Origin: Cucumis sativus
Lineage: Eukaryota; Streptophyta; Magnoliopsida; Cucurbitales; Cucurbitaceae
Direction: 5' to 3'
Length of the DNA: 64,000 nucleotides
Assembly: GCF_000004075.3 (NCBI RefSeq)
Contig: NC_026660.2
Location: forward strand, 14,031,837 to 14,095,836
The translations under genes were made by a program, and so were the position numbers. Numbering within the stretch: position 1 is the first letter of the stretch; every line of letters begins with the position of its first letter. Below are positions 8,108-61,280 of the stretch, piece by piece. A model generated the notes under the pieces. That model was given only the letters and a program-made list of their open reading frames with translations, searched no databases and was not told where the DNA came from.

Positions 8108-8791
8108 GATGATGACCCTGCCCGTTTTGGCGTTGCCTGATTTCAATGCCACCTTTGAAATGGAAACAGATGCATCGGGATATGGGGTAGGAGTCGTACT
8201 CGTCCAAGCCAAGCGTCCCATAGCATACTTTAGTCATACGTTAGCCTCAAGAGATAGAGCCAAGCCTGTATATAAAAGGGAATTAATGGCAGTGGTGTTG
8301 CATGTGCAACGATGGCGACCATATATGTTGGGGAGAAAATTTATTGTGAAGACCGATCAGAAATCCTTGAAGTTCTTGTTAGAACAAAGAGTGATACAGC
8401 TTCAGTATCAGAAATGGGTAGCGAAGCTAACGGGATACTCATTTGAGGTGGTCTACAAACTCAGCTTGGAGAATAAAGCAGTAGACGCCTTGTCTTGGAT
8501 GCCTCCTACAATTAACCTCGGTAGCATAACAGCTCCTACATTGGTTGACATTCTGGTGACTAAAAAGGAAGTCAAAGCGTATGAAAAATTAAGCAAAATA
8601 ATGGAAGAACTACAAGCAATGGAAGAAGTAACAGAGGGTAAATTCTCCATCCGACAAGGTATGTTAAGAATATAAGGATAAGTTTGTGCTGTCCAAAACA
8701 TCTAACATTGATACCCAACAATCATCTACATACTTACCATGATTCGGTACTTGTGAGGAATGTGTAATATGTCAGAAGAACAAGTCCCTAG
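8108..8791 (+). mobile_element. Ty3/gypsy element G2, 3' fragment (fossil)
   Basis: RNase H region of a Ty3/gypsy retrotransposon (TDASGYG, then the DQKSLKFLLEQR segment) and the start of the integrase zinc-finger region. It is cut on the left by the tandem-array rearrangement and on the right by an LTR of another family at 8,792. It is the same element as at 26,282-30,091 and 49,452-53,257. Broken relic. Confidence 0.8.
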
Positions 8792-9235
8792 TGTAACGCG
8801 AGCATACTTGTCCAAGGTGTGTTTACCTATGGCCGTATGCTCCCGATTAGCCCCAATTTACCTTGTCTTTATGTCTTGCACGTAGCTTAGGTAGTTGCTT
8901 TCAATTTCAAGTCGATATGCTTGGGTGTGACGTTTCGGCATTTTCATATGTTAAAAATGTACTATAGGGGAGGCATACCTGTTGAATCCCTGCCCAAGCC
9001 TTGTCGTACTCTTCGCAGTCTATGCTTTCTTATTGCAATTGACAGTCTTCAATGCTTGTTTTAACAACGTTTTCAATCAATTTAATCATCTTTCATGTTT
9101 TCTAAAAATATTTTTCCAAGAACGTGAGGGGAGGTTGAAGTGTGTGTTAAAGTTGTCTGCGATTTGCAGATTTTGATCGGCTGACTTGTTCGCCGAGCTA
9201 GAACAAGTGCCGCACAATCGTTCACATCGTGTTTG
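8792..9235 (+). mobile_element. LTR fragment, family L (unit copy 1)
   Basis: Begins TGTAACG-GAGCATACTTGTCC directly after truncated G2 and is similar over about 440 bp to 20,320-20,780, which also starts TGT--AGAGCAT-CTTGTCC. Shared blocks include GTGTGACGTTTC, AATGTACTATAGGG and ACAGTCTTCAATGCTT. It ends near CCGCACAATCG. No coding region of its own was identified here. Fossil. Confidence 0.6.
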
Positions 9236-9244
9236 AAGGGTTAC

Positions 9245-10126
9245 ACAGTAAAGGAAGAGTAAGAATTTGAGAGGAGAAACTCCAATTTGGATCAACACGT
9301 GGGCAACAACATGGCTTCTCACCAACATGAGAACTCAAAAGAGACAGCAGATATTCTAGAGAAGCCAATGAACTCTTGGGATGTGAATCTGCACTTTCCT
9401 GCAATAGTTTGAGTGTGAATTAGTTCTCTGAAAACACCTGCAGAGGATAATCCACGGCAAAACAGAATAACTATAAAAAAACCACTTGCAAGTAGAAGAA
9501 AAAGGAAGTACATTTATACCTTCCCTGTCAAAGTGATATCCCTCATCAACGGATATGCATTTCTTTTCCAGGAAGTAGCCAACAATTTTACAAACCCATG
9601 GGAGTTTAGGTTGTAATAAGAAAACAATTGTGTCCAACAATAGAGTTGCAGGTGTGTTAGAGTTCACAGGTGCAGCCAAAAGTTGATTCCTCAATTGGTT
9701 TCTATCAAGAACAACATCAAGTAAGAATAATTCGGAGGAAAAATAAAGGCAACTTATCATATATATAAATATGATTAGTCTGAATTCGTTTGCGGAAGGT
9801 AAAAAAAACCTTTATGTCAATTATATATATCTGAACAAAATCTAAGAAATATATCACTTTTCAACAAAAGAAATATATCATATACAATTAAAGGATCATT
9901 GCATAGAAAGCCAACAAAATCAACAATGATAGATCAAACATCTGTTTTTCCATTCAAAACGTTAAAAAGGATAAGTTTTTAATAAGGAATGTTGAAATGG
10001 AAAAAACTAATTACCTATTATGGTGTACAATCTGGATGCAAGCATATGCAAATTTCTTAACTCTGTAATCCACTAAGGCCTTGTTAAGTACATAATCCTT
10101 GCTAGCGAAAATGCTCAACATATCCC
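9245..10126 (-). pseudogene. Three exons of a probable UPL6/7-type HECT ubiquitin ligase (copy 1)
   Basis: Minus-strand exons 10,126-10,015 (DMLSIFASKDYVLNKAL... to CIQIVHHNR), 9,701-9,520 (NQLRNQLLAAPVNS, then LPWVCKIVGYFLE... to LTGK) and 9,398 to about 9,245 (ESADSHPKSSLASLEYLLSLL, CCCPRVDPNWSF, QILTLPLL). All boundaries are AG/GT, and the exons join in phase in the undamaged copies at 30,545 and 53,700. The last exon resembles the region before the HECT domain of plant UPL6/UPL7 E3 ligases. That assignment is from memory and uncertain. No HECT catalytic cysteine or N-terminus is present, so it is a captured middle fragment. This copy has a one-base length difference in the middle exon. 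Confidence 0.45.
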
Positions 10127-10680
10127 CTATATATGTAAGAGAGAGAAAGGTTAGAAAGTACTAACACTAAGAGATATGTGCTATCAATTAGAAACACTTT
10201 AAGATGACATTATCAATTAGAAAACCAAGTATTAAGCAGCATAAGGGAAAATAACAAACAAGGGCACCACAGTGGTTCAGAAACCAATCAATATTTCCAT
10301 TTGTCACTTTTATAATAATTTCCCAAGGGAAAATCCTCATAATAAGCTTGAGTACCACCTAATAACGTGTTCAAATGTTACCATAAGCAAAAATGAGTGA
10401 TCCTAAAATTCATATGACAAGGAAAGTCGTCAACTAGCAAACCGCCAAATAACAGTTATATGGCTAGAATTAGTTTTCTCCAACTTCAAGAAAATAAAAC
10501 ATATTAAAACAAAAGGAATTATGGTGCAAAATAATGAATATGCTGCAAAGGTAAGAAGTTTCTGAAGGTAAAAATGGTCAATAAAAAACAACATATAATT
10601 TGACGTAAATCAAAGTAGAATTATTTCTCGCAATGAATTCTCTGCCAATAATGGCTAAGAGAAGGGGTATTTATTGAGAA
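10127..10680. other. Intron-like AT-rich sequence flanking the UPL fragment
   Basis: Upstream of the first exon on the minus strand the sequence is AT-rich with no exon I could confirm. It runs up to the integrase fragment at 10,681. It is likely intronic sequence carried along with the gene fragment. The same applies to 31,432-31,984 and 54,588-55,141. Confidence 0.4.
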
Positions 10681-11013
10681 TTAGTTAACCAGGCAGAAAT
10701 CATCTAGGGCATAGTATTGTTTTAGGTCTGCGACATTAAAAACATAATGAATGTGTAAGTCTGGTGGTAGTTCTATTTTGTAAGCATTATCTCCGATCCT
10801 CTTTAGGACACGGAATGGTCCTAATTGTCTGTCTTTTAGTTTGTTGTATGTTTCGATTGGAAATCGATTTTTTCTTAGGTGAATCATTACTAAATCTCCC
10901 TTGGTAAAGGTAGTTTGTCTTCTTTTTCTGTCTGTTGCGTCTTTGTAGGACTGAGTTGTTTCTTTTAGGTGATTGTGGACTTCTTCGTGTAAATTCTGGA
11001 TTTTTTCTATCAT
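10681..11013 (-). mobile_element. Gypsy integrase C-terminal fragment G3 (copy 1, fossil)
   Basis: A minus-strand segment encodes a typical integrase C-terminal region: RKRRQTTFTKGDLVMIHLRK, RQLGPFRVLKRIG, NAYKIELP and FNVADLKQY. This is the end of a Ty3/gypsy polyprotein in the orientation opposite to G1 and G2. The catalytic integrase core is absent. Relic. Confidence 0.75.
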
Positions 11014-12876
11014 CTTTTCTGCCTCTGATAGTTAGGGAACTCAACACATTTTACTTGACCTAACCAAGATGGCTCTTTGTATGTATATTGCATGTGTTGT
11101 TTGTTTTTTTCTATAGCTCTTGATTGTCTCACTTTTTTACGTTTTGCATTTGCAATTCTCTTTTCTTTCTTTGGTATGCAATGTGGTAACAAGGTCTTGC
11201 TAGAACCGGTGGGCTAACCTTTCTATGGTTCTAAACTTAGTTTCTAAGTTTGACTGCTCCCTTCGGAGTGACAACAAGCCTCGTTTTCCCCTACTATGGA
11301 ACGGGGAGGATTCATTTTCTTTTCAAAGCCCTCGTCAAACTCAATGCTAAGTTTGACTGCTCCCTTCGGAGTGACAACAAGCCTTGTTTTCCCCTAATGT
11401 GGATCGGGGATGATTCCTTCTCTTTTCAAAGCCCTCATCAAACTCGATGCTGTGCTTAGAACGCTAAGAGTAGGTGGTCTGGTTTTGGTTAGGCCAAAAG
11501 TGAAGTTTTCCCCCATTTTTTATGGGCTTTTTCTAATGTATATTGGATATGTTGTTTGATTTTTTTTATAGCTCTTGATTGTCTTACTGTTTTATGTTTT
11601 GCATTGTCAAGTCTCTGTTTTCTTTCTTTGGTATGCAATGTGGTAACTAGGCCTTGCTAGAACCGGTAGGCTAACCTTTCTATGGTTCTACATTTAGTTC
11701 CTAATTAAGTTTGATTGCTCCCTTCGGAGTGACAATAAGTTTTGTTAATGTCGACCCTTTTCTAAAGGGATTTAGTTCACTGTGGCTAGGCAAGAGGTTT
11801 CTAACTCATGTTTGACAAGACAAATTTGTTAAAACCATCTTAGTTTCTAAAGAGTGCCTCCTATCCCTTTTTTACTCTATCTAGGCTAGGTTTGGACTAA
11901 GTGCATCATAGGTAAGTCACGACAAAGCAACAAAGGAAGACAAAGCTAGAAAAGTATTCATGCACTTATTTATTATACATGCAATCAAGCATTCACAACA
12001 TACATACCATTTTCTCAATCATGCATTCACACCTCAATAAGAAATAGCTAAAAGGAGCTTACAACAAAAAAGACAGCCGCTTATTCTCAAATTTCAGCAC
12101 ATATACTCATCAAAATTTAGAATTTCACATTGCAAACCCGAGCTCAGTGCTCAAGGGTTGCCAATCATGCTTTTTATGCAAGATCTAATTAAGCTAAGAA
12201 GGTATAATGCTCATTTTGTATGGAAAGAATTCTGAAATTTTTTTTAAATTTGGGCAAAATTTGAACCCCGAAGTTTAGACTAAACATGCAAGCTAAGCAA
12301 GCTATTACCCACACCCACTCAAAAAATTGCTTTGTCTGTCCTAAAAGCTTTTGAAAATCAAAGTAAATGGAGAAAAATAAGGGGGGAACTTTGGACTCCC
12401 CTAGAAGGATCGACATCCTTGACTTTGGTTTGAAGCTTGCATGGATAAACCTTTTCATTCCTTTTTAATTGATTATTCATCCTTGTTCCTGAAAATCAAA
12501 GGAAATTCTCTCAATTTTATATATTACTAAAATTAGGATACATATAAGTCTTAACTAGTCTAATAGCACCCTCCATTCATCTTCCCCTACACTGGCTATG
12601 GTATCAAAATTTTCAATTAAGTAATACGTCTACTAACGAACTTGAAAACAAAACACATCACACTAAAAAACACAAACATCACTTTAACCCAACAGAAGCT
12701 GCTCTTTTTACCCTTGCACTCACTATCACATTACTATCATGTTTGTCAACTGTCAAACTAACTCTTTTAAGTTATTTAGTGTGACTACAAAGTTATGAAC
12801 ACCATAATCTTAATTAAAACCTTTTAATAAACAAATGCCAAGTTACTACTCAACAATGGCAAGGAATTCAAAAAAC
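11014..12876. repeat. Non-coding retroelement-derived DNA with direct repeats (copy 1)
   Basis: No gene. Two 103-bp tandem copies begin at 11,245 and 11,348 (CTAAGTTTGACTGCTCCCTT, CCCTAATGTGGATCGGGG). A longer direct repeat pairs about 11,081-11,275 with 11,537-11,745, sharing GGTATGCAATGTGGTAAC, TTGCTAGAACCGGT and CCTTCGGAGTGACAA. It probably belongs to the untranslated or LTR part of the element that supplied the G3 integrase fragment. Confidence 0.6.
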
Positions 12877-12881
12877 ATGAC

Positions 12882-15140
12882 TGTAACGACCCAACTTTTC
12901 TAGGTAAGTCGAAGTCATTAATTTCAAATAAGGACCTGAGTTTACACAAAATCTCAATCTCAAACAATTTCAAAGTCTCAAGAAAAACAAAAATTTATAT
13001 CTGGGCCCTGTTTAAAATAACCAGCACCTTCAAGACAAATTTACTAATTCGTGAATACAATTCAACTATAAAATTTTCTAAACAATCTCAAGTACTAAAC
13101 AAAACACGTGAAACAAAACATTTAGCGGAAGCAATTTAAAATAACCCCTATGGCAATCACGCTTCCTTTCTGCCCCTCGCCGGTTTGCCGTCTTTATTAT
13201 CTTTGCCTGAAAATTAAATATAAGGAGGGTGAGTATAAAAATACCCAGTACGAGACCCTCTACTGGTCCCGTCAGGGTAAAATAAATTGTTAACATTCTA
13301 TTGGGACACCCTGTACAGTCACAGTCTTGTGATCCCGTAGGATGCACATTTCAGTCTAACGCCCCGAGGGACGTACATTTCAGTCTAGTGTTCTGCAGAA
13401 ACACATATCAGTCTAATGCTCTTGAAGGTGCAGAATAATTGGTGATCCGTGTGACACCTACAAGGCACACATCCCAATAAAAGCTAACAATTTTTCCCCT
13501 CAGTCCATTCTAAACATCTTAACAGTCATTCACAGATCAGTTAAACATTCTCATCACGTAAACTCTTTATTTAACCTCAAACAGTCGTCTTACTCTAATT
13601 TAGTCCAAGGTCAATAAAAAAACATATCATTACATCAGTTAACAAGCTAAACAATCATAACCTCCTCCTCAGTCACCAAGGGCACCACCATGACGTTTCT
13701 TCCGTTCACAAGCACACAACATAACAGTAGATTATACACTCAGTCTAGACAACAATCAATCTACTAATCAAATCCACACTTTATATAAGCAACATCTACG
13801 AGATTCAGTCGTTTCCACATCCTTATCTTTGTACACATACATAACCAGACAGTCATAACATATACTCAACCACAGTCTACATCAATCCATGCACATATAT
13901 GTATTAATTTCTCCCAGTCAAACATAGCAAACATTAAACTTTAAGTCAATGCCCAAACATACATCATAACAGTCATCTCTACTCAGTTCAAATCAATACA
14001 TCTTAATTAGTCATTATATCTTAATTTTATTGTTGAGTCTAGTAGAAAATCCCTTACTTTCAAGTTAGTTAAGCTCCTTAACCACGTTGAAGTCTACGAA
14101 GAACGAACCTAAACATTAAGACAATTTCTCAATAATTCTCATCAATCATTTAAATTCAACCCAATGTGATTTTTTTTTTACAACTTACCCAAATCTTCAC
14201 AAAACGAGTTCCAACTAGAATCAATTGTTTGGTGCGAACCCAATGAATTCGAGTGTTACCTTCAACCTATAATCGATATAATCGAACAGTAAACGATTTA
14301 TCCAACCAATTATTCCAGCAATATTACTTGAGTTTATTTTGGAAACAGTTACAAATTTCATAACTTCAATCTTACCAATCAAAATTTAATGACTCGTGGC
14401 AAAGCAGGAACGACAGCGAACAACCCAATCGAATGGCGTGGGTTTGCTACCTGCGGCAGGACGAAGAAGGAACTCGACGCGCAGAAAGTTGGATCTGGGG
14501 TCTTTAGTTCGGTTCACGGTAGCGAATTAAAACCTGATTGCGCGGACGTCAAAGGTGTTATTCGCGGAAGAAGTCGAGCAGCAGCTTTGCGAAGAGACGA
14601 CGTGCGACGGAGAGACTGTATACAGACGGACGGAGAGTCGCGCGGCAGTGCAGAAAACGGAGGAGAAAGGAATGGGCGGCGGCTGGGCTTGGCTTCGACG
14701 GAGACAGAGGCGATTAGGACGGGGCACGGCGACGCAGATCTGGACGACGGCGCGGAGACAGAGGTTGCGCGGCGCTGGGCAGAGGGTCAAACGGCGCTGG
14801 GCGAAGGGTCACACGGCGCTGGGCGGAAGGTCACACGGCGGCCTTGCTTCGCGAACAGAGATGGCGGCCGACGGTTGCAGCGGCGGCTGGGTATGGTAGA
14901 AAAGAAAGAGAAACGGAAGAAGAATAGGGGCGGCGACCGTGGATCGGAGAAGAAAAGAAGGATGAAAGCGATGGTGGCCGGTTGGAGGGTGCGGCTGGAG
15001 GTAGGGATCGGTGAAGGAGAAAATAGAAAAAGAAAATGAAGGGGAAATGGGGGTTGCGCGCGGGAGGAAGAAGAAAGGAAAAAAAATTCTTTTTTTTTTT
15101 TCTTTTCTTTTATTTAAATTAAATAATAAAACTAAAATAT
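12882..15140. mobile_element. Solo LTR, right end deleted (copy 1, fossil)
   Basis: Starts TGTAACGACCCAACTTTTC after the target-site copy ATGAC (12,877-12,881) and is collinear with the complete solo LTR at 34,187-36,585, but its last 141 bases are lost in the deletion ending at 15,140. It contains a GC-rich segment (about 14,389-15,060) and a 22-bp minisatellite (CGGCGCTGGGC-AAGGGTCACA) in three to four copies at 14,770-14,838. No internal retrotransposon domain is attached. Confidence 0.8.
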
Positions 15141-15204
15141 GTGTATTGATCAAATGACCCATATCAATAAGGACACAAAATTGGCAAAGAACAAATAAAT
15201 TAAA

Positions 15205-15728
15205 ATGGACAATAACTCTTGTTTCATTACTTTCTCTCTCATTGGAGTTCTTTTGTTCACCATCATTTCAAATGTGGCATCATCTAACGACGTTGTTTCT
15301 ACCATCTGTTCAGAAATCTCAAATCCACAATTTTGTTTAAGTGTGTTGAAATCTGCAGGCACTACAGATCTAAAAGGCTTGGCTGTATACACCTTAAACC
15401 TTGCTCATTCAAATGCTGGCAAATCTTTGATCCTAGCCAACTCACTAGCAAAAGCCACCACCAATCCTCAACTTAAGCAACGATATTCATTTTGTGCTGA
15501 GAGCTATGATGAAGTTGTTGGTGACATTGAAAATGCTCAAAAACGACTTGGCACTTGGGGACTTTATTGGTGTCATTATTGCAACTACTGGTGCCATGAC
15601 AACTCTTGGTGATCACTGTCAGAATAAGCTCTTGCAGCCGCCGAAGGATACATCGTTGCTTTTAAAGAATAGCAACACTCTAGATGATATAATTTAGCAT
15701 TATTATGGTTATATCCGATCATCTTTGA
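15205..15728 (+). pseudogene. PMEI-B, copy 1: frame-shifted and promoter-swapped
   Basis: Nearly identical to the intact gene at 38,440-38,961: MDNNSCFITF start, signal peptide, CSEISNPQFC motif and third cysteine in CAESYDE. An A-run at about 15,539-15,543 is one base longer than in the intact copy, so the frame leaves the family sequence after residue 112 and ends at 15,612 without the fourth cysteine. A second one-base difference lies near 15,691. The native promoter is gone: only 64 bases of leader remain before the junction at 15,140, and the truncated solo LTR lies upstream. The frameshift could be sequencing error, since homopolymer indels are frequent in this copy. Confidence 0.75.
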
Positions 15729-15867
15729 GGGTTATGTACTTGAACATTTTGATCAATAAATAAACTGAAGTTTAATTTTTAAAATAATATTACAATGTGA
15801 TGGTGATTGGAATTGATTACTTACTTTGATTAAACTTGAGAAGATAAGAAAATCAATTAATAGAAAC
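15729..15867. terminator. PMEI-B 3' flank with polyadenylation signal (copy 1)
   Basis: AATAAATAAA follows the stop by about 30 bases, as after the intact copy at 38,988. Confidence 0.45.
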
Positions 15868-16510
15868 GTTCACCGACACACATTGTCAGCACGTCGGAGA
15901 AAGCCTAAACTTTTTTTTCTTTTCTTTTACGTTCTGTTTTCTTTTCTTTGTTTGCCATCATCATCATCATCTTCTTCTAGCTTCTTACGTTCTGTTTCAA
16001 TTGCATACTTCTGTTATTCTTGTAATTTCTTCGTGGTTTTCTTTTTAACTTTGTGTTTCAGTGTGGATTCATAAACACATTTTTCAGTGCTCTGGATTCT
16101 GGATCTGTTATGATTTTGAAAGGGTACAGTGAAGTGAAAAGTTGAAATGGAAAAGAAAAAAAGAAGAAAAGAGGACACTTCTCGCGGTGGTGGCGGCAAA
16201 GACTGACGTCGACGACAACACAACTCTCCTCCTCTCCCTATATCTCGGCCGATTTTGGGTTTATTTTCGTTTTGCATTCTGTTATGTGTGGAAGGGAGAA
16301 TAAATAGTGTGGACTTTCCCCGACGTCTTCGAAAACGTTGGGAAATTTACCTTTCGCCGACGTATGTAGTACACACGTCGGAGAAAGTTTAAATAATAAA
16401 TTCATTATTTAAACTTTCCCCGACGTACTCCTGTCATACGAGTCTAAATTAAATTTAATGCGTTCTCCTTCGGCGATGTGTGTCAAGGTGACGTTGGAAA
16501 AAGTTTAAAC
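15868..16510. mobile_element. Relic with CCGACG/CGTCGG subterminal-type motifs (copy 1)
   Basis: The motifs CACGTCGGAGAAAG, TTTCCCCGACGT and TTCGCCGACGTA recur in both orientations on either side of a TC-rich stretch. A near-perfect inverted repeat has 23-bp arms (16,375-16,397 and 16,404-16,426, one mismatch) and a 6-bp loop. Repeated short motifs of this kind are usual near the ends of CACTA-type DNA transposons, but no CACTA terminus was found here. It could be an internal remnant or a MITE-like derivative. No transposase. Confidence 0.4.
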
Positions 16511-18000
16511 ACTAATGCAATTATTTTAAATCACATATGTTATCGCTTATATGGCATAGGAGTCTATTAACGATAGAAATCTATCTTGATAGGTTTTTGC
16601 TACATTTACAATGTTTAAAAAATATTCTTATATACTTAACTATTATTCCTAAAATTGCTAACCCATTATACTTACCCTTAGTTAAATGTATAATGTCAAA
16701 AGTAAGTTTACTACGAAGGTAATCTATGTGACCCTTTTATCCTAACGTAGGAAGTTTGTTCCACTCCATACCATTATTGAACTAAAAGGATTAAGTGTGT
16801 ATTAATATGTTTAAACAAGTATAATTATAAGCAAAATCTATAAGTGATATATTGATATTAGCAATACAATACGCGTCACATATGCAAACATTTTGTGTCT
16901 AATCGTTGTATTTACAATTAACTCCATTAAAATATTACAAATAGAAATAGAACTCTTTAACCTATGTTCAGTTAGGATCACAAACTACAAAATGAAAGCA
17001 TGGAACAAATTTAATTTTTTTTTTCTTTAAAGGAAATTTTGTGTGTAGCACATTATATTTTTTTCTTTCCTTTAAAAAACATTATTGATCTTATGATATT
17101 TGACATATATTATATTTTTTTAAGAATGTAAATAATGTAAATAATGTGCCAAATAATTGAAAACATGTTATCCAAAACAGAGAATGGTTAAGAAATTGTT
17201 GACATTTAGTCAAATTAATAAATAATTCAAAATTGTGTTTGATTTTTGAATTTGAAAAGATAGTAAAATTAGAAGTGTTTTGAAATAGTGTTTACGAGAA
17301 GATTTTTAATTTTAAATAGCATTATAGTAGCTATGGATGGTTATATAATAGTCTACACAATCTTTGTCACAAATGATTAATTCGATTTTTTAAATCAAGT
17401 CTAATGTTTTTTTTTTTTTTTTGCCTATTTCTTACCCATAATTTTTACATTTTTTGTAAGTATAATGGTTGAATGCAAAAAGAGAGCTGACTAGTAAGTG
17501 CAAAAAGAGATCTCACAAGCTTCTGCAAAAGCTAATCAAGCAACCCAAATCATAAACGAGGAGAAAAGTTGATTGGTTAAGCTTTGTTGTAGTAAAGAAG
17601 AAGTCAAAGTGAACATGGAACGTTCTTCACTCTCAAAGAACATCGCCAACATATAGATTATATACTTTTTCTGGTATTGACCCAAAAAACACAATCCAAG
17701 TGTATTTTTGGTGAGATGCATAGTTTAACTAAACCGTGTTATTACAAAATTTTTAATTACTAGGAACTCCTAATGAAACGAATACATTATTTTTATAATT
17801 ACGAGGTAAAATGGAAACATACAAACTACTAAAAAAAGTTGCAATTCGATTATTGGGATTCAATCTACTCTCCATGAATGTTTCTTGAAATGAGAGTTTT
17901 TAAGCAGCTACAACTTGCTTATGTATAAAAGCAAAACCCTTTCTCAACGCCTACCTTCAGTTTTGGCTTTAGAGCTTCAAGTGATTTTTGCCCCTACTCA
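16511..18000. other. AT-rich spacer (copy 1)
   Basis: No coding sequence found. There is a T-run at about 17,408-17,422 and a short inverted repeat of TTTAAAGGAAA at about 17,027 and 17,069. The equivalent region in the next unit is 39,755-41,230. Confidence 0.5.
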
Positions 18001-18066
18001 GATAAACCCTGAAGATCAGATGTTACAAAGGCTTCAATTCCACATGCAAAAATCATGTTCATGAAC

Positions 18067-20061: not shown

Positions 20062-20319
20062 GGGACTTCCAAGATTCGATGGAGGTTGTCAAGAAATTCT
20101 ACGCATTCAGATTACAACCACTACAAGGAATTTCAGATCAACCACACAACAATTTAACACTATTGGGAGAATCCACGAATTCTTGGTCAAGTAGAAGAAC
20201 CTCCATGTGGAAGAAACAAATTGTGAACGTGTCGAAGACCTTGAAGTGTGGAAATGGAAGATCAAAGAGTTCCAGCTTCGCCAGTCGACAGGGACGTCAA
20301 CTGTTTAAGTAGGGGAGAA
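20062..20319 (+). mobile_element. 3' internal end of the family L retroelement (copy 1, fossil)
   Basis: Non-LTR sequence running into a polypurine tract AGGGGAGAA (20,311-20,319) directly before an LTR start. A perfect 16-bp palindrome CGCCCCAATTGGGGCG lies just upstream at 20,023-20,038. No domain could be assigned with confidence. Confidence 0.45.
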
Positions 20320-36585: not shown

Positions 36586-36590
36586 ATGAC

Positions 36591-41230: not shown

Positions 41231-41298
41231 CAGATAAACCCTGAAGATCAGATGTTACAAAGGCTTCAATTCCACATGCAAAAATCATGTTCATGAAC

Positions 41299-49150: not shown

Positions 49151-49451
49151 ACTAAAATAAATAGAAGGAAATGTTCAGGTTAGTGGGAACTATGCCCATA
49201 TACACCAAGTTCGAATATAGAACTTGCTTCTTACTGAAAAAATAATGATTATGGGACTTGCTATAAGGGTATCCAATACTCGAAGTAAATGAATGATTAC
49301 AAAATGATTGTTTCCTCAGTTTGAAGAAGAACAACAAAAAAGAAAAGAAGGATAAAAATAAAAAAAAAAACAAACTTTCTTTTTGAAATTCTAAAAGAAT
49401 CCAAAAAGACTTCAAAAGGTGCAACCAAGAAAGGAGGTCAAAGAAGGGCTC
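49151..49451. other. A-rich spacer between G1 and G2 (copy 2)
   Basis: Equivalent of 25,966-26,281. No gene. Confidence 0.5.
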
Positions 49452-52400
49452 TGATAGACCCCCCTATCATACGTCAATATAGTCAAAAAAAAAAAGAGAG
49501 AGATCACAAGGGAACACACATGCGAAGAAGAAAAGATTTAAAGGATTGTTAGAAGAAAAGATTTAAAAAGCTTGTTGGGCGTCGGTTAGATTTGAGGAGA
49601 TTTAGGAGGGTCGTTAGGTGTTGATTAGAATAAATAAGGATAGGGAGGAAAGAGGAGGGTATGCTGAGTTTAGAAGAAAATTGACTCATGCTCTTCCTTG
49701 AGCGATAGGATAGCAGAGAGGGAATTAGATTGTTTTTCGAATTGAGTCCTCCTCAATTTGAGTGTTCTGATATTTTGATTTTCCTTGTAACTCATTCTTT
49801 GATTGAAGCAATAAAAGTTCTAATTGGATTTCCAAAAGAGTTCTATCAAATTGGTATCAGAGACAGTTTTTTCTGACCAAGAGGAAAATGATGGTCCAAA
49901 CACGAATGAAGGAGAGAATGGAGGCGCACGACCAGGAGATGCATTTGATGAGAAGCGAGATAAGCAAAATTTCGACAATGAAAGAAATATTAGCCACGAT
50001 CAGCGTACAGACAAAGAAGACTCACAAAATGTTGATAATGTTCATGGAATCGATTACCAGAGAGCATATCGTTATGAGTGAGAAAATGGCCGAGTCGAGT
50101 GTGCGAGAGACAGTATCAACAATAACGAATAAGAAGGAAGGCTCGATCGAAAAGGACCATGAGCACGAAACAAAGGATGGAAAGATAGAAGGAGAAGACG
50201 GAGCGAACGAGCATAATAAGTTCAAGAAGGTTGAGATGCCAGTTTTCAACACGGAAGATCCCAATTTTTGACCCTTTCGAGCAGATAGATATTTTCAGAT
50301 ACACAAATTGACTGATGCTGAGAAGGTCCTGGTTGCGACCATTAGTTTTGAAGGCCCGACGCTGAACTAGTATAGGGCGCAAGAAGAACACGACAAGTTT
50401 ACCAGTTGGTCGAACCTCAAGGAGAGAATACTCATCCGTTTTCAATCAGCAAAAGAGGGGTCCATATGCGGACAATTTTTTAGGATCGGATAACAGACGA
50501 CAGTAGAAGAATATCGAAACCAGTTATATAAGCTGATGGAACCGTTATCCGATCTACAAGACAGAGTGGTGGAGGAAACATTCATGAACGGTTTACTGCC
50601 GTGGATTAAAGCAGAAGTGGATTTTTGTCGTCCGGTCGACGTGGCTCAAATGGTGCACGCGGCTCAACTCGTAGAAAATCGAGAGATAATTCACAATGAG
50701 GCCAACCTTAAGGGGTACGCCCAAGGAAAATATCCGCCTCAAGGTTCTAGGCAAAATACGAGTGCTGCGACGGTGAACGATAGCGACAATAAGAGAAATA
50801 CATTATTTTCGATGAGAACGATTACTCTGAGAACGACATCCAGAGAAGTTAAGAGAGGGGCAGGCAAAGCGATTGTTAGACGCGGAGTTTCAAGTCAGGA
50901 AGGAAAAAGGACATTGTTTCCGTTGTAATGAGATATATTATCATGATCATCGATGCAAAAACAGAGGGCAAAGAGAGTTGAGAATGTACGTGGTCAGGGC
51001 GAATGATGAAGAATTTGAAATCATAGAAGAAGTGGGAGAAAATGAATTGTTTGGAAATCACATAAGAAGATCATGTTGTCATCGAACTGTCAATTAATTC
51101 GGTGGTGGGGCTGAACAATCCGAGGACAATGAAGGTGAGGGGGAATATCAGTGAGCGAGAAGTTTTCATTTTCATTGATTGTGGAGCAACGCACAACTTC
51201 ATCTCCGAAAAGATAGTAAAGGAGTTACAACTGGCCACGAAGGCAACGTCGCACTATGGTGTAATCTTGGGCTCGGGGGAGGCGATAAAAGGTAAAGGAG
51301 TATGTGAGGACGTGGAAATCAAGTTGAACGGGTGGAAGGTGGTGGAAAATTTGTTACCCTTAGAATTGAGAGGGGTAGATGTTGTGTTAGGAATGCAGTA
51401 GTTGTATTCATTGGGCATGACGGAAGTAGATTGGAGGAACCTCACAATGACTTTTGTGCAACAAGGAGAAAAGGTAGTGATAAGAGGAGACCCAAGTTTG
51501 ACCAAATCCAGAGTGAGTCTCAAGAACATGATCAAAAGGTGGAAGGATTCGTGATCGAGTGCCGAGCAATGGAGAGAGTCTTTGAGCCACAGGAAGATAA
51601 CGGGATTGAAGAAGTATTAACTACTGATGAAGCAGTATCGGTCGTGTTGAAGAATTTTGAAGATGTTTCTAATTGGCCGAAGACACTACCCCCGCAAAGA
51701 AATATTGAACATCACATTCATTTGAAACAGGGCACTGATCTGGTAAATGTTCGACCCTATAGATACGCTTATCAACAGAAAGCTGAGATGGACAAACTTG
51801 TGGATGAGATGTTGACAGCTGGAATTATCCGTCCCAGCAACAGTCCATATCTAGTCCAGTTCTATTGGTAATGAAAAAAGATGGCAGCTGGCGTTTTTGC
51901 GTAGACTACCAAGCGCTGAACAATGTAACCATTCCAGACAAATTCCCTATTCCGGTGGTTAAGGAGCTTTTCGATGAATTAAATGAAGCAAACTGGTTTT
52001 CAAAGATTGATTTGAAGGTGGGGTACCATCAGATCAAAATGTGTGGAGAAGACATCGAAAAAGCAGCATTCCGAACACATGATGGACACTATGAATTTAT
52101 GGTTATGCCATTCGGCTTAACTAATGCCACATCCACTTTCCAAGCTCTGATGAACTCAACATTCAAACCATTTTTGCAGAAGTTCATATTAGTGTTTTTC
52201 GACGACATACTAATCTACAGTGAGAACTTGGAACACCATTTGAAGCACATTGGGTTAGCATTGGAAATCCTGAGAAAGAATGAGTTATATGCAAACAAGA
52301 AGAAGTGCAGCTTCGCACAAGAACGTATTGATTATTTGGGTCATATCATTTCAAGACAAGGAGTTGAAGTGGACCTTGAGAAAATCAGAGCAATCACGGA

Positions 52401-53257
52401 ATGGCCTATACCCAGTAATATAAGAGAGGTACGGGGATTCCTAGGCCTCACCTGTAACTAAAGAAAGTTCGTTCAGCACTATGGCTCCATTGCCGCACCA
52501 TTGATTCAACTACTTAGGAAAGGGGGATTCCAGTGGACTGAGGAGTCTAAGGAGGCATTCCAACAACTACAAAATGCGATGATGACCCTGCCCGTTTTGG
52601 CGTTGAAAAAATTTCAATGCCACATTTGAAATGGAAACCGATGCATCGGGATATGGGGTAGGAGTCGTACTCGTCCAAGCCAAGCGTCCCATAGCATACT
52701 TTAGTCATACGTTAGCCTCAAGAGATAGAGCCAAGCCTGTACATAAAAGGGAATTAATGGCAGTGGTCTTGCATGTGCAACGATGGCGACCATATCTGTT
52801 GGGGAGAAAATTTATTGTGAAGACCGATCAGAAATCCTTGAAGTTCTTGTTAGAACAAAGAGTGATACAGCTTCAGTATCAGAAATGGGTAGCGAAGCTA
52901 ACGGGATACTCATTTGAGGTGGTCTACAAACTCAGCTTGGAGAATAAAGCAGTAGACGCCTTGTCTTGGATGCCTCCTACAATTAACCTCGGTAGCATAA
53001 CAGCTCCTACATTGGTTGACATTCTGGTGACTAAAAAGGAAGTCAAAGCGTATGAAAAATTAAGCAAAATAATGGAAGAACTACAAGCAATGGAAGAAGT
53101 AACAGAGGGTAAATTCTCCATCCGACAAGGTATGTTAAGATATAAGGATAAGTTTGTGTTGTCCAAAACATCTACATTGATACCCACAATCCTACATACT
53201 TACCATGATTTGGTACTTGTGAGGAATGTGTAATATGTCAGAAGAACAAGTCCCTAG
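49452..53257 (+). mobile_element. Ty3/gypsy retrotransposon G2, copy 2 (broken)
   Basis: LTR 49,452-49,848, primer-binding site TGGTATCAGAGAC at 49,852-49,864, gag about 49,888-51,000, protease 51,100-51,400, reverse transcriptase ([17 protein letters not shown]) 51,730-52,460, RNase H 52,580-52,980. It ends in the integrase zinc finger where a family L LTR begins at 53,258. Almost identical to copy 1. Several breaks; no 3' LTR. Confidence 0.85.
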
Positions 53258-53690
53258 TGTAACGAGCATACTTGTCCAAGGTGTGTTTACCTATGGCCGT
53301 ATGCTCCGATTAGCCCCAATTTACCTTGTCTTTATGTCTTGCACGTAGCTTAGGTAGTTGCTTTCAATTTCAAGTCGATATGCTTGGGTGTGACGTTTCG
53401 GCATTTTCATATGTTAAAAATGTACTATAGGGGAGGCATACCTGTTGAATCCCTGCCCAAGCCTTGTCGTACTCTTTGCAGTCTATGCTTTCTTATTGCA
53501 ATTGACAGTCTTCAATGCTTGTTTTAACAACGTTTTCAATCAATTTAATCATCTTTCATGTTTTCTAAAACTATTTTTCCAAGAACGTGAGGGGAGGTTG
53601 AAGTATGTGTTAAAGTTGTCTGCGATTTGCAGATTTTGATCGGCTGACTTGTTCGCCGAGCTAGAACAAGTGCCGCACAATCGTTCACAT
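53258..53690 (+). mobile_element. LTR fragment, family L (unit copy 3, fossil)
   Basis: Same as 8,792-9,235 and 30,092-30,535. Confidence 0.6.
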
Positions 53691-53699
53691 CGTGTTTGA

Positions 53700-54587
53700 A
53701 GGGTTACACAGTAAAGGAAGAGTAAGAATTTGAGTGGAGAAACTCCAATTGGGATCAACACGTGGGCAACAACATGGCTTCTCACCAACATGAGAACTCA
53801 AAAGAGACAGCAGATATTCTAGAGAAGCCAATGAACTCTTGGGATGTGAATCTGCACTTTCCTGCAATAGTTTGAGTGTGAATTAGTTCTCTGAAAACAC
53901 CTGCAGAGGATAATCCACGGCAAAACAGAATAACTATAAAAAAACCACTTGCAAGTAGAAGAAAAAGGAAGTACATTTATACCTTCCCTGTCAAAGTGAT
54001 ATCCCTCATCAACGGATATGCATTTCTTTCCAGGAAGTAGCCAACAATTTTACAAACCCATGGGAGTTTAGGTTGTAATAAGAAAACAATTGTGTCCAAC
54101 AATAGAGTTGCAGGTGTGTTAGAGTTCACAGGTGCAGCCAAAAGTTGATTCCTCAATTGGTTTCTATCAAGAACAACATCAAGTAAGAATAATTCGGAGG
54201 AAAAATAAAGGCAACTTATCATATATATAAATATGATTAGTCTGAATTCGTTTGCGGAAGGTAAAAAAACCTTTATGTCAATTATATATATCTGAACAAA
54301 ATCTAAGAAATATATCACTTTTCAACAAAAGAAATATATCATATACAATTAAAGGATCATAGCATAGAAAGCCAACAAAATCAACAATGATAGATCAAAC
54401 ATCTGTTTTTCCATTCAAAACGTTAAAAAGGATAAGTTTTTAATAAGGAATGTTGAAATGGAAAAAACTAATTACCTATTATGGTGTACAATCTGGATGC
54501 AAGCATATGCAAATTTCTTAACTCTGTAATCCACTAAGGCCTTGTTAAGTACATAATCCTTGCTAGCGAAAATGCTCAACATATCCC
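53700..54587 (-). pseudogene. Three exons of a probable UPL6/7-type HECT ubiquitin ligase (copy 3)
   Basis: Minus-strand exons 54,587-54,476, 54,163-53,983 and 53,861 to about 53,700, with the same splice sites and phases as copy 2. The last exon reads ESADSHPKSSLASLEYLLSLL and PRVDPNWSF, then loses similarity after QILTLPLL. A partial gene with no catalytic domain. Confidence 0.45.
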
Positions 54588-55141
54588 CTATATATGTAAG
54601 AGAGAGAAAGGTTAGAAAGTACTAACACTAAGAGATATGTGCTATCAATTAGAAACACTTTAAGATGACATTATCAATTAGAAAACCAAGTATTAAGCAA
54701 CATAAGGGAAAATAACAAACAAGGGCACCACAGTGGTTCAGAAACCAATCAATATTTCCATTTGTCACTTTTATAATAATTTCCCAAGGGAAAATCCTCA
54801 TAATAAGCTTGAGTACCACCTAATAACGTGTTCAAATGTTACCATAAGCAAAAATGAGTGATCCTAAAATTCATATGACAAGGAAAGTCGTCAACTAGCA
54901 ACCGCCAAATAACAGTTATATGGCTAGAATTAGTTTTCTCCAACTTCAAGAAAATAAAACATATTAAAACAAAAGGAATTATGGTGCAAAATAATGAATA
55001 TGCCTGCAAAGGTAAGAAGTTTCTGAAGGTAAAAATGGTCAATAAAAAACAACATATAATTTGACGTAAATCAAAGTAGAATTATTTCTCGCAATGAATT
55101 CTCTGCCAATAATGGCTAAGAGAAGGGGTATTTATTGAGAA
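54588..55141. other. Intron-like AT-rich sequence (copy 3)
   Basis: Equivalent of 10,127-10,680. No exon confirmed. Confidence 0.4.
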
Positions 55142-55474
55142 TTAGTTGGCCAGGCAGAAATCATCTAGGGCATAGTATTGTTTTAGGTCTGCGACATTAA
55201 AAACATAATGAATGTGTAAGTCTGGTGGTAGTTCTATTTTGTAAGCATTATCTCCGATCCTCTTTAGGACACGGAATGGTCCTAATTGTCTGTCTTTTAG
55301 TTTGTTGTATGTTTCGGTTGGAAATCGATTTTTTCTTAGGTGAATCATTACTAAATCTCCCTTGGTAAAGGTAGTTTGTCTTCTTTTTCTGTCTGTTGCG
55401 TCTTTGTAGGACTGAGTTGTTTCTTTTAGGTGATTGTGGACTTCTTCGTGTAAATTCTGGATTTTTTCTATCAT
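55142..55474 (-). mobile_element. Gypsy integrase C-terminal fragment G3 (copy 3, fossil)
   Basis: Same fragment as 10,681-11,013 and 31,985-32,317. Confidence 0.75.
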
Positions 55475-57335
55475 CTTTTCTGCCTCTGATAGTTAGGGAA
55501 CTCAACACATTTTACTTGACCTAACCAAGATGGCTCTTTGTATGTATATTGCATGTGTTGTTTGTTTTTTCTATAGCTCTTGATTGTCTCACTTTTTTAC
55601 GTTTTGCATTTGCAATTCTCTTTTCTTTCTTTGGTATGCAATGTGGTAACAAGGTCTTGCTAGAGCCGGTGGGCTAACCTTTCTATGGTTCTAAACTTAG
55701 TTTCTAAGTTTGATTGCTCCCTTCGGAGTGACAACAAGCCTCGTTTTCCCCTACTATGGAATGGGGAGGATTCATTTTCTTTTCAAAGCCCTCGTCAAAC
55801 TCAATGCTAAGTTTGACTGCTCCCTTCAAAGTGACAACAAGCCTTGTTTTCCCCTAATGTGGATCGGGGAGGATTCCTTCTCTTTTCAAAGCCCTCATCA
55901 AACTCGATGTTGTGTTTAGAACGCTAAGAGTAGGTGGTCTGGTTTTGGTTAGGCCAAAAGTGAAGTTTTCCCCCATTTTTTATGGGCTTTTTCTAATGTA
56001 TATTGGATATGTTGTTTGATTTTTTTTATAGCTCTTGATTGTCTTACTGTTTTATGTTTTGCATTGTCAAGTCTCTGTTTTCTTTCTTTGGTATGCAATG
56101 TGGTAACTAGGTCTTGCTAGAACCGGTAGGCTAACCTTTCTATGGTTCTACATTTAGTTCCTAATTAAGTTTGATTGCTCCCTTCGGAGTGACAATAAGT
56201 TTTGTTAATGTCGACCCTTTTCTAAAGGGATTTAGTTCACTGTGGCTAGGCAAGAGGTTTCTAACTCATGTTTGACAAGACAAATTTGTTAAAACCATCT
56301 TAGTTTTTAAAGAGTGCCTCCTATCCCTTTTTTACTCTATCTAGGCTAGGTTTGGACTAAGTGCATCATAGGTTAGTCACGACAAAGCAACAAAGGAAGA
56401 CAAAGCTAGAAAAGTATTCATGCACTTATTTATTATACATGCAATCAAGCATTCACAACATACATACCATTTTCTCAATCATGCATTCACACCTCAATAA
56501 GAAATAGCTAAAAGGAGCTTAAAACAAAAAAGACAGCCGCTTATTCTCAAATTTCAGCACATATACTCATCAAAATTTAGAATTTCACATTGCAAACCCG
56601 AGCTCAGTGCTCAAGGGTTGCCAATCATGCTTTTTATGCAAGATCTAATTAAGCTAAGAAGGTATAATGCTCATTTTGTATGGAAAGAATTCTGAAATTT
56701 TTTAAAATTTGGGCAAAATTTGAACCCCGAAGTTTAGACTAAACATGCAAGCTAAGCAAGCTATTACCCACACCCACTCAAAAAATTGCTTTGTATGTCC
56801 TAAAAGCTTTTGAAAATCAAAGTAAATGGAGAAAAATAAGGGGGGAACTTTGGACTCCCCTAGAAGGATCGACATCCTTGACTTTGGTTTGAAGCTTGCA
56901 TGGATAAACCTTTTCATTCCTTTTTAATTGATTATTCATCGTTGTTCCTGAAAATCAAAGGAAATTCTCTCAATTTTATATATTACTAAAATTAGGATAC
57001 ATATAAGTCTTAACTAGTCTAATAGCACCCTCCATTCATCTTCCCCTACACTGGCTATGGTATCAAAATTTTCAATTAAGTAATACGTCTACTAACAAAC
57101 TTGAAAACAAAAGACATCACACTAAAAAACACAAACATCACTTTAACCCAACAGAAGCTGCTCTTTTTACCCTTGCACTCACTATCACATTACTATCATG
57201 TTTGTCAACTGTCAAACTAACTCTTTTAAGTTATTTAGTGTGACTACAAAGTTATTAACACCATAATCTTAATTAAAACCTTTTAATAAACAAATGCCAA
57301 GTTACTACTCAACAATGGCAAGGAATTCAAAAAAC
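55475..57335. repeat. Non-coding retroelement-derived DNA with direct repeats (copy 3)
   Basis: Equivalent of 11,014-12,876. From about 55,560 onward base substitutions against the other two copies become clearly more frequent than to the left of this point. Confidence 0.6.
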
Positions 57336-57340
57336 ATGAC

Positions 57341-59758
57341 TGTAACGACCCAACTTTTCTAAGTAAGTCGATGTCATTAATTTCAAATAAGGACCTGAGT
57401 TTACACAAAATCTCAATCTCAAACAATTTCAAAGTCTCAAGAAAAACAAAAATTTATATCTGGGCCCTGTTTAAAATAACCAGCACCTTCAAGACAAATT
57501 TACTAATTCGTGAATACAGTTCAACTATAAAATTTTCTAAACAATCTCAAGTACTAAACAAAACACGTGAAACAAAACATTTAGTGGAAGCAATTTAAAA
57601 TAACCCCTATGGCAATCACGCTTCCTTTCTGCCCCTCGCCGGTTTGGCGTCTTTATTACCTTTGCCTGAAAATTAAACATAAGGAGGGTGAGTATAAAAA
57701 TACTCAGTAAGAGACCCTCTACTGGTCCCGTCAGGGGAAAATAAATTGTTAACATTCTATTGGGACACCCTCTACAGTCACAGTCTTGTGATCCCGTAGG
57801 ATGCACATTTCAGTCTAACACCCCGAAGGACGTACATTTTAGTCTAGTGTTCTGCAGAAACACATATCAGTCTAATGCTCCTGAAGGTGCAAAATAATTG
57901 GTGATCCGTGGGACACCTACAAGGCACACATCCCAATAAAAGCTAACAATTTTTCCCCTCAGTCCATTCTAAACATCTTAACAGTCATTCACAGATCAGT
58001 TAAACATTCTCATCACGTAAACTCCTTATTTAACCTCAAACAGTCGTCTTACTCTAATTTAGTCCAAGGTCAATAAAAAAACATATCATTACATCAGTTA
58101 ACAAACTAAACAATCATAACCTCCTCCTCAGTCACCAAGGGCACCACCATGACGTTTCTTCCGTTCACAAGCACACAACATAACAGTAGATTATACACTC
58201 AGTCTAGACAACAATCAATCTACTAATCAAATCCACACTTTATATAAGCAACATCTACGAGATTCAGTCTTTTCCACATCCTTATCTTTGTACACATACA
58301 TAACCAGACAGTCACAACATATACTCAACCACAGTCTACATCAATCCATGCACATATATGTATTAATTTCTCACAGTCAAACATAGCAAACATTAAACTT
58401 TAAGTCAATGCCCAAACATACATCATAACAGTCATCTCTACTCAGTTCAAATATAATAATACGGTCCATACAGTCAATACATCTTAATAAGTCATTATAT
58501 CTTAATTTTGTTGTTGAGTCTAGTAGAAAATCTCTTACTTTCAAGTTAGTTAAGCTCCTTAACCACGTTGAAGTCTACGAAGAACGAACCTAAACATTAA
58601 GACAATTTCTCAATAATTCTCTTCAAGGCATCAATCATTTAAATTCAACCCAATGTGATTTATTTTTTACAACTTACCCAAATCTTCACGAAACGAGTTC
58701 CAATTAGAATCAATTGTTTGCTGTGAACCCAAGGAATTCGAGCGTTACCTTCAACCTATAATCGAACAAGTAAACGATTTATCCAACCAATTAATCCAGC
58801 AATATTACTTGAGTTTATTTTGGAAACAGTTACAAATTTCATAACTTCAATCTTACCAATCAAAATTTAATGACTCGTGGCAAAGCAGGAACGACAGCGA
58901 ACAACCCAATCGAATGGCGTGGGTTTGCTACCTGCGGCAGAACGAAGAAGGAACTCGACGCGCAGAAAGTTGGATCTGGGGTCTTTAGTTCGGTTCACGG
59001 TAGCGAATGAAAACCTGATTGCGCAGACGTCAAAGGTGTTATTCGCGGAAGAAGTCGAGCAGCAGCTTTGTGAAGAGACGACGTGCGAGGAGAGACTGTA
59101 TACAGACGGACGGAGAGTCGCGCGACAGTGCAGAAAACGGAGGAGAAAGGAATGGGCGGCGGCTGGGCTTGGCTTCGACGGAGACAGAGGCGATTAGGAC
59201 GGGGCACGGCGACGCAGATCTGGACGACGGCGCGGAGACAGAGGTTGCGCGGCGCTGGGCAGAGGGTCACACGGCGCTGGGCGAAGGGTCACACGGCGCT
59301 GGGCGGAAGGTCACACGGCGGCCTTGCTTCGCGAACAGAGATGGCGGTCGACGGTTGCAGCGGCGGCTGGGTATGGTAGAAAAGAAAGAGAAACGGAAGA
59401 AGAATAGGGGCGGCGACCGTGGATTGGAGAAGAAAAGAAGGAGGAAAGCGATGGTGGTCGGTTGGAGGGTGCGGCTGGAGGTAGGGATCGGTGAAGGAGA
59501 AAATAGAAAAAGAAAATGAAGGGGAAAGGGGGGTTGGGCGCGAGAGGAAGAAGAAAGGAAAAAAAATTCTGTTTTTTTTTTTTCTTTTATTTAAATTAAA
59601 TAATAAAACTAAAATATAAATAAATATATATATAATTATATTATCACATTTTCAAATCTTCTTTCTCCCCCTTCAACATATTTTCTTCAAAAAAATAAAT
59701 CTTGTACAAATCGAATAATTTTCTTAAAATAAATTACCTTCGAGTTTGGGGCGTTACA
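57341..59758. mobile_element. Solo LTR with target-site duplication (copy 3, fossil)
   Basis: TGTAACGACCCAAC...GGGGCGTTACA, 2,418 bp, flanked by ATGAC at 57,336-57,340 and 59,759-59,763. It carries more substitutions than copies 1 and 2 show between themselves, plus a small insertion near 58,450. Confidence 0.88.
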
Positions 59759-59775
59759 ATGACAGCTATATTGTA

Positions 59776-59953
59776 ACTTGGCACTTGGGGACTTTAATGG
59801 TGTCAATATTGTAACTTCTGGTGCCATGACAAATATTGGTGACTGTCAAGATAAGTTCGCATAGCCACCGAAAGATACATCGTTGCTTTTGAAAAATGGC
59901 AAGACTCTAAATGATATATGCAACATTATTTTGGTTATATCCAATCTTTTTTT
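59776..59953 (+). pseudogene. PMEI-A 3' end, detached (copy 3)
   Basis: Same 63-bp piece of PMEI-A plus its 3' end as at 36,603, with TAG after CQDKFA. No start codon or promoter. The following spacer (59,954-61,280) is AT-rich without a gene. Confidence 0.8.
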
Positions 59954-61280
59954 AAGGCTATGTACTTGAAGATTTTAATCAATAAATAAAATGAAGTTTA
60001 ATTTTTAAAATAATAACATTACAATGGGATGGCGATTGGAATTGATTACTTTGGTTAAAATTTAAGATTAGATTAAAAAAATCAATTAATAGATAATTCC
60101 ATCTAATCAAAATAACTAAATAAAAGACGAGATTTGAAAATATAATATCCTAATATACACTAATAGACTTATATTAATAGATAATTTCCTGCCGATGAAA
60201 AATTACTAAAGTTGTACTATATTTTATAAATATTTTAAAACATTACATAAACACTAATTAAAGTTGGGTTTAGTAGCAAAAGGTTACAAATTTATTGACA
60301 CCTTCTTTTAGGAAAAAAAAATACCTTGACATGAGGTAAACTAAATTTGTAATCAGCGTTGAAATCTTTACTATATTAAATGGGCTCGTGGAGAAAAAAT
60401 TATATACATCTATTTTATTCTTAAATTGTCGAAAAAAAATTATATTACCTTTTGTGATCTAACGTAGTTGTGATTTTTATAGTGTAAGTGTCCATTTTAA
60501 TGTTTGGAAAGATGATTTTTCCAATTTTTTAGTTTACAAAATAAAGTTCTATATTTTAAAAAATAAAACCTTATGTTGAATATGTGTAACTAATGTTGAT
60601 AGGATGTGATTGGTTGATCTTCAAGATACGATGCATTCTGTTTAGAGTGGAGATGGTTGCACACACATCAAATTTGCGTTGATTCCTCCAAATTTACATG
60701 TGAAATGTAAATGTAAAAGAAAAACAAAATAAACTCTTGCAGTTACACATTAAAAAAAAAAAACGTCACGAAATTCCAAAGTTCAAAAGAAAACAAACAC
60801 ACACAGGGATTTAATTGATTCAAAGTAGTAACGAATGGTGAAAAAATGCATCATTTCTTGTGATTTCACATTAACATGTTAGAATAAAAAATTATCGTAT
60901 TCTATATATTACAATATTGGATCAAATATTAATACATTAATTTAATTATTTAATTACTACAACAATGAATTTCTTTTTCTTTTTTAAATAATAATTTTAC
61001 CATTAATATTATATAATATTTGTTTATTATATGCTAAAGCATATTTAAAAATTAAATAGAATTAAGAGATTTCACGTGAATTTATGCACATGTTTCAACT
61101 GAAAAGATGGAAACAATAGTCACAAATTATTTTTTCCTAAAACAAAACATTCATAACCAAATCTAAATATGCACTTTCATAACTAAGGACCAAAACTCAT
61201 ATTACGTAGAATTGAGCATGGTTTAAATGAAATTATTAACAAAATACTTACACTTTACACCAGGTTTTTTGGCAACATAC
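59776..61280. repeat. Tandem unit, fourth copy, interrupted
   Basis: Matches 36,603-38,107 over the same length (1,505 bp). By eye there are about two dozen substitutions, near 1.5-2 percent. It ends abruptly at the CACTA terminus at 61,281. Confidence 0.9.

Follow-up and report, generated by a model that had tools for sequence, protein, structure and literature searches.

A probable pericentromeric tandem array of a PMEI-bearing 23.17-kb block in cucumber, and its unsafe copy number in the reference

Overview

A stretch of 64,000 nucleotides from Cucumis sativus (assembly GCF_000004075.3, NC_026660.2, positions 14,031,837 to 14,095,836; hereafter the window, in which positions are counted from its first letter) probably carries a pericentromeric tandem array on chromosome 6 (C6 in chromosomal coordinates). 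Within the repeated block of 23.17 kb, the 3′ part of one PMEI gene (PMEI-B) is followed by a second PMEI gene (PMEI-A), two dead Ty3-type elements (G1 and G2) and the end of a long terminal repeat (LTR). As a structural variant the array is of an ordinary kind; it lies in an unreliable part of the reference and has a noteworthy link to PMEI-B genes of the centromere. It illustrates how a gene near a centromere is cut, joined and multiplied along with dead retrotransposons, and it marks a spot where the cucumber reference should not serve for gene copy number.

Layout of the array

A preliminary description had placed a tandem array on a PMEI locus, with two long units at 15,141-36,602 and 36,603-59,775, and this layout is borne out by self-BLAST of the window and by global alignment. 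In the self-BLAST, 15,137-38,119 and 38,372-61,293 are 98.8% identical over 23,038 columns. The last 7 kb of the unit is present a third time, since 8,108-15,140 matches 29,412-36,444 at 98.8% and 52,578-59,617 at 98.0%. The length and identity of these matches rule out chance similarity. At least two head-to-tail copies of more than 1 kb at more than 90% identity are thus found, as in a tandem segmental duplication. The features are collected in Table 1.

Unit 2 is complete (23,173 bp), while unit 1 measures 21,462 bp, with 1,931 bp gone at its start. The order in unit 2 is PMEI-B 3′ part, PMEI-A, G1, G2, an integrase fragment on the opposite strand and the 3′ end of the LTR. The offset between units was earlier described as constant at about 23,170 bp, and this does not hold: units 0 and 1 are offset by 21,304, and the offset of units 1 and 2 is 23,235 at first and falls along the unit to about 23,170. 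The latter drift arises because 72 of the 92 alignment gaps are bases absent from unit 2.

Truncated units had been described on both sides of the array. On the left this is correct, as unit 0 is partial. On the right, a truncation is ruled out by the sequence past the window, where unit 3 proves to be interrupted by a CACTA element and resumes at C6:14,098,901, with an identity to unit 2 of 97.5%, then 95.6% and then 94.2%. In the resumed part, BLAST found no match to G2 except a 338-bp piece at 73%. Beyond the window, the assembled array extends to about 14.208 Mb and includes a higher-order repeat of 80.5 kb that spans a 500-N gap.

Table 1. Features of the array and its flanks (window positions; strand left empty where none applies)
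Feature	Position	Strand	Evidence or remarks
Right part of Mutator-like element, left flank of the array, outside the unit	1..7474		PF02902, PF10551
PMEI-B 5′ half (P1); open frame 7,694-8,137, 148 aa, with chimeric end in retroelement sequence	7475..8096	+	PF04043, TIGR01614
First 63 bp of unit 0	8034..8096	+	100% identity to 36,603-36,665
11-bp filler at the deletion junction between PMEI-B and G2 RNase H	8097..8107		Comparison with parent sequences
Remainder of partial unit 0, from G2 RNase H to the LTR region	8108..15140	+	Self-BLAST; 31 private substitutions
Unit 1, beginning at the PMEI-A promoter side	15141..36602	+	Alignments, junction reading
Frameshifted PMEI-A of unit 1 (135 aa), which has lost its promoter side	15205..15612	+	Open frame comparison
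G1 of unit 1, degenerate Ty3-type pol; reverse transcriptase open frame 24,159-24,779	22733..25601	+	PF00078, E 1.1e-31
G2 of unit 1, degenerate Ty3-type element	26636..30064	+	Open frames; Pfam from the unit 2 copy
Integrase C-terminal/SH3 fragment of another Ty3-type element	31988..32335	-	PF24626
LTR 3′ end, terminating ..GGGGCGTTACA (36,575-36,585)	36398..36585	+	Genome search, 40 of 160 candidates scored
17 bp separating LTR end from PMEI-B	36586..36602		Junction sequence; repeated at 59,759-59,775
Unit 2, complete, 23,173 bp	36603..59775	+	Alignments, junction reading
PMEI-B 3′ part and downstream flank	36603..38264	+	94.2% to 5,406-7,088 of the C2 copy (L029)
PMEI-A of unit 2, intact 173-aa open frame	38440..38961	+	PF04043, TIGR01614, 1xg2_B
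G1 of unit 2	45628..48717	+	Open frames; 62% direct repeat with G2
G2 of unit 2	49807..53230	+	Open frames, Pfam (PF17917/PF17919 at 52,607-53,230)
Start of unit 3	59776..61280	+	Self-BLAST, junction reading
CACTA element in unit 3	61281..64000, on to C6:14,098,900		5,784 bp, target duplication TAC

Junctions and proposed history

One novel junction recurs between successive units. The joints at 36,602/36,603 and 59,775/59,776 are identical over 120 bp (36,543-36,662 against 59,716-59,835), and each leads from the LTR end through 17 bp into the middle of the PMEI-B exon. In the whole assembly, four such joints are present. A 12-bp sequence, ATATTGTAACTT (36,595-36,606), straddles the joint and occurs again at 36,633-36,644, a recurrence that suggests templated filler as a possible source of part of the joint. 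The 5′ half of PMEI-B at the left edge of the array (P1) overlaps the unit start by 63 bp and is thus the left end of the original gene.

Two deletions had been proposed from the first inspection. The one at 15,140 is supported, and comprises 1,931 bp with a 4-bp microhomology (ATAT). The left one, thought to join 8,096 to the RNase H region of G2, is also present, with 15.9 kb gone relative to unit 2, but the left unit starts earlier than supposed: unit 0 keeps 63 bp of the unit start (8,034-8,096) before it jumps to G2 RNase H. As read from the sequence, these junction features are marks of end joining.

In the history that we propose, end joining would have sealed a DNA break by connecting a site just past the LTR end with mid-exon sequence of PMEI-B, giving the first tandem copy. 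Later copies would have come from misalignment between copies, through unequal exchange and gene conversion, and these rounds would have left some stretches nearly identical and others 1-6% diverged, in a mosaic. The deletions of 15.9 kb in unit 0 and 1.93 kb at the start of unit 1, the insertion of a Mutator-like element (MULE) upstream and the insertion of the CACTA element in unit 3 would have shaped the array further. The repeated unequal exchange invoked at the outset can therefore explain the later copies, whereas the first junction looks like end joining. It is unlikely that the first copy, too, arose by unequal homologous exchange between repeats such as G1 and G2 or the PMEI genes. 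Suitable repeats do exist in unit 2, where PMEI-A and PMEI-B are 85% alike over 324 columns and G1 and G2 are 62% alike over 3.2 kb; the joint, however, has an LTR end on one side and a PMEI exon on the other, shows no evident long homology and may include templated filler. The original right-hand site of the first duplication was not found.

Divergence between copies

Units 1 and 2 differ by 97 substitutions in 21,191 sites (0.46%) and by 88 gaps. The substitutions amount to about 0.2% in the first 17 kb, rise to about 1.5% in the last 4.2 kb and are clustered (variance/mean 8.3, with a maximum of 2.5 in 1,000 shuffles). In the 7-kb block from G2 to the LTR, which was compared in five copies, 31 substitutions are private to unit 0 (four of them adjacent and near the junction) and 51 to unit 2, and unit 1 and its two relatives in the contig that lies past the right gap differ by 0.19-0.27%. 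Incompatible site patterns among the copies, most of which rest on 1-4 sites, together with the clustering suggest conversion or exchange. The unequal divergence, which also includes the 94.2-97.5% identity of unit 3 to unit 2, points to several rounds of such events.

The array had also been called recent. This description holds only partly, and suits the first 17 kb of the unit better than its last 4.2 kb or unit 3. With a rate of 4.5e-9 substitutions per site per year, as in the available text of PMC6582320, stretches of units 1 and 2 would be roughly 0.2 to 1.7 million years apart, and a single date is meaningless because the divergence is mosaic. Pairs of LTRs by which G1 and G2 could be dated were not seen in a self-comparison of unit 2.

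Reality of the array and number of copies

The sequence evidence makes it probable that the tandem duplication is real. Private substitutions in units 0 and 2 argue that this is not one sequence repeated by the assembler, and the contig past the right gap carries the same tandem arrangement, with an offset of 23,156. The copy number in the reference assembly, on the other hand, is unsafe and not established. In this respect, the caution in the preliminary description about an assembly artefact was well placed, and several observations weigh against the array as assembled. The contig that holds it is 96,104 bp long and enclosed by two 500-N gaps. The next contig, across the right gap, contains the right-hand 75 kb again at 99.3% identity, with a stretch of 11.8 kb free of substitutions between the two. 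According to the parts of PMC6582320 that were accessible, version 3 of the cucumber 9930 genome is a meta-assembly of six pre-assemblies from PacBio subreads with an N50 of 10.8 kb, corrected with Pilon and scaffolded with linked reads and Hi-C. With such subreads and six merged pre-assemblies, few reads would span a 23-kb unit. Moreover, gaps about as numerous as substitutions in units 1 and 2 (88 and 97) fit poorly corrected sequence, and mosaic patterns could arise from a mixed consensus.

It is very unlikely, in our judgment, that only one unit is real and that the assembly made the entire tandem, including units 1 and 2, from it. Reads mostly below unit length, many single-base gaps and N gaps on either side would all be expected in that case; yet private substitutions are numerous in units 0 and 2, the units have differing junctions, each short enough for single reads, and the same tandem is seen in the second contig. 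A real tandem whose locus was assembled twice, so that the contig past the right N gap (14,127,734 on) is a second version of the first, is another matter, and we lean slightly towards it. The true array would then run from unit 0 to unit 3 and be followed by a satellite with a 155-bp period. Counted from 14.0 Mb, 52,124-127,233 and 132,722-207,869 are 99.3% identical, and the first contig ends at the point that matches 207,869, about 0.4 kb before the satellite in the second. No gap of at least 20 bp occurs across the 34 kb and 41 kb aligned, and one run of 11,811 bp has no substitution, a length reached in 0 of 1,000 shuffles. A merge of six pre-assemblies with linked-read and Hi-C scaffolding, as described above, would make such a double entry easier. 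Nevertheless, substitutions separate the two contigs, 176 of them over the 34 kb of unit 3 and 114 over the 41 kb of units 1-2. These are patchy, with up to 32 per kb, in a line that PMC6582320 describes as highly inbred, and their variance/mean ratios of 15.2 and 9.1 compare with maxima of 1.9 and 1.8 in 1,000 shuffles. The first units also differ in structure, 1.93 kb being missing in one and 1.67 kb in the other, and 19 substitutions in the PMEI-A block are private to unit 3.

PMEI genes of the array

PMEI-A of unit 2 matches the PMEI family above the curated cut-offs, both in PF04043 (E 1.6e-12, profile 2-128 of 156, 48.3 bits against a cut-off of 29) and in the NCBIfam model TIGR01614 (E 7.3e-21, profile 6-177 of 178, 74.3 bits against 35.95). 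Its best relative of solved structure is the pectinesterase inhibitor 1xg2_B (E 6.5e-18). Among the 40 of 55 candidates that were scored in a genome search, matches of 99-100% to PMEI-A are confined to the array, where they fall at six places (one of them partial), and the 173-aa frame is open at four of the six. In unit 1, PMEI-A has a 1-bp homopolymer difference at 15,539, and the resulting frameshift, like other frameshifts here, may be a sequence error, because gaps are about as frequent as substitutions (88 against 97) and most of the alignment gaps are bases missing from unit 2. P1 is 88% identical to PMEI-A and 94.5-95.5% identical to five PMEI-B copies that are dispersed in the genome (L029-L033).

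Strong purifying selection on PMEI-A is unsupported: between the unit 2 gene and the five PMEI-B copies, the pairwise ratio of nonsynonymous to synonymous substitution (dN/dS) is 0.71-0.88, with 13.5-15.5 synonymous differences, which are too few for a firm statement. Since some PMEI-A copies are intact and others are frameshifted or severed from their promoter side, the functional effect of the array is probably small, and a dosage effect is the most that would be expected.

In the literature, 11 CsaPMEI genes are reported for Chr6, along with one tandem PMEI pair (PMC12073293, as far as its available text goes). Pectinesterase-inhibitor domains are enriched among the novel genes of cucumber v3 in the accessible sections of PMC6582320, and the copies of the array may be among them; those sections describe neither the array nor the centromeric PMEI-B copies. 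By titles and the beginnings of abstracts, the array was not found in the literature on CsaV3_6G018 to 023 or on cucumber PMEI copy number.

Relation to PMEI-B copies of centromere 6

PMEI-B itself occurs at other places in the genome. The 2-kb flank of the copy on C2 has at least 17 full-length matches of 99-100%, its own place included, among the 40 of 585 candidates that were scored. All 17 adjoin PMEI-B, although at C63 and C76 the gene is diverged or in pieces only. A family search gave 13 PMEI-B copies with an unbroken full PMEI domain, and a stop in the copies of C44, C52 and C76. Copies lie at C6:15,795,521, 16,214,134, 16,268,635 and 16,352,263, at C2:48,857 and at C4:26,686,523, with others on small contigs. 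Since the CENH3 interval of centromere 6 (Cent6) is given as 15.9-16.5 Mb in the available text of PMC11220175, three of these copies (C6 16.21, 16.27 and 16.35 Mb) fall within it. The array itself, at 14.0-14.2 Mb, is outside this interval and by its position does not count as a CENH3-bound centromeric repeat.

Five dispersed copies were compared in detail. Pairwise, their longest common piece is 5.1-9.0 kb at 99.0-99.7%, and the PMEI-B pieces of the array are 93.9-95.5% identical to them, with the order kept. From this shared order and identity we infer that the array and the dispersed copies descend from one ancestral block. In all five copies, G2 from the middle of the reverse transcriptase onward comes after PMEI-B, as if PMEI-A and G1 had been deleted. 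A large PMEI-B unit of constant extent was not found, and what lies 16-18 kb downstream of the C2 copy is a dispersed element whose distance varies (40 of 1,701 candidates were scored).

These observations allow a bolder reading, which we offer tentatively and regard as possible rather than likely. Here, PMEI-B would be part of a gene-bearing macro-repeat, a complete PMEI-B segment having spread near-identically in the region of centromere 6 and on related unplaced contigs. The array would be an outpost of the same ancestral block, about 5% diverged and re-amplified independently. If this is true, a functioning plant centromere has an intact family of protein-coding genes among the repeats that build it. 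The connection of the array with PMEI-B copies of Cent6 provides a concrete case for asking whether genes in centromeric repeats remain intact and expressed.

Several repeats accompany these loci. At seven places, of which two are on C6 and one each on C4, C10, C16, C44 and C69, PMEI-B has a tandem repeat of about 1,037 bp located 3-10 kb upstream. When it was searched with C2:32,001-34,000 (L035), full-length matches of 98-100% were found in the Cent6 interval, at about 15.95 Mb of C5, near the end of C4 and on many small contigs; 28 of 377 candidates were scored, and the place of the query itself was not returned, so copies were missed and the search tells little of how rare the repeat is. 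In the array, a pair of 215-bp repeats flanks a 103-bp tandem repeat at 11,071-11,739 and at the same places in units 1 and 2. Upstream of PMEI-B in L030, a tandem repeat whose period is about 518 bp is related to the region of this pair at about 95%. Members of the LTR family of 36,398-36,585 occur chiefly on small contigs and at centromeres or close to them. The 36 scored copies outside the array comprise 12 on C4 (11.4-12.8 Mb), 6 on C5, 3 on C7, 1 each on C1 and C6, and 13 on small contigs.

Comparison with known systems

Tandem segmental duplications of plant pericentromeres form a general class. Like them, the array has head-to-tail units of tens of kilobases in which retrotransposons abound, divergence is mosaic and truncated copies of genes occur. 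No structural difference from this class was found; the PMEI relative linked to the centromere is specific to the array.

Within cucumber, the Femaleness (F) locus is comparable in that it, too, is a copy-number variant of a gene-bearing segment. According to the available text of PMC7072070 and PMC8813957, its copy number has been altered by unequal crossover and it controls gynoecy, whereas the array is tied to no known trait.

Flanking elements

To the left, the array is bordered by a MULE of 10.6 kb (C6:14,028,755-14,039,310, including a 500-N gap). It has 121-bp terminal inverted repeats that are 96.7% alike and a 9-bp target duplication, GTGATTATT, and it carries a C48/Ulp1-like fragment (+) and a MULE transposase fragment (-). 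Long terminal inverted repeats, a target duplication of about 9 bp and a MULE transposase place it among the Mutator-like elements, and its empty site is present in L029, the PMEI-B copy on C2. As one MULE spans the left N gap with matching 9-bp target duplication, the left contig join is supported.

CACTA…TAGTG ends are the defining motif of CACTA (En/Spm) elements. The insertion at 61,281 has such ends together with its 3-bp target duplication. It holds a single open frame of at least 120 codons (121 aa), and an inverted relative is found at C6:14,236,585-14,241,807 (96.6-97.6%).

The satellite that bounds the array in the second contig (C6:14,208,278-14,225,430) covers 17 kb with a period of about 155 bp, and its long alignments are about 75-80% alike. 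Elsewhere, matches reach at most 79% among the 39 of 177 candidates scored, in a search that missed the query's own place and thus says little on rarity. Within the CACTA element, an 80-bp tandem repeat of 3.1 copies, 98% alike, is present at 63,534-63,778.

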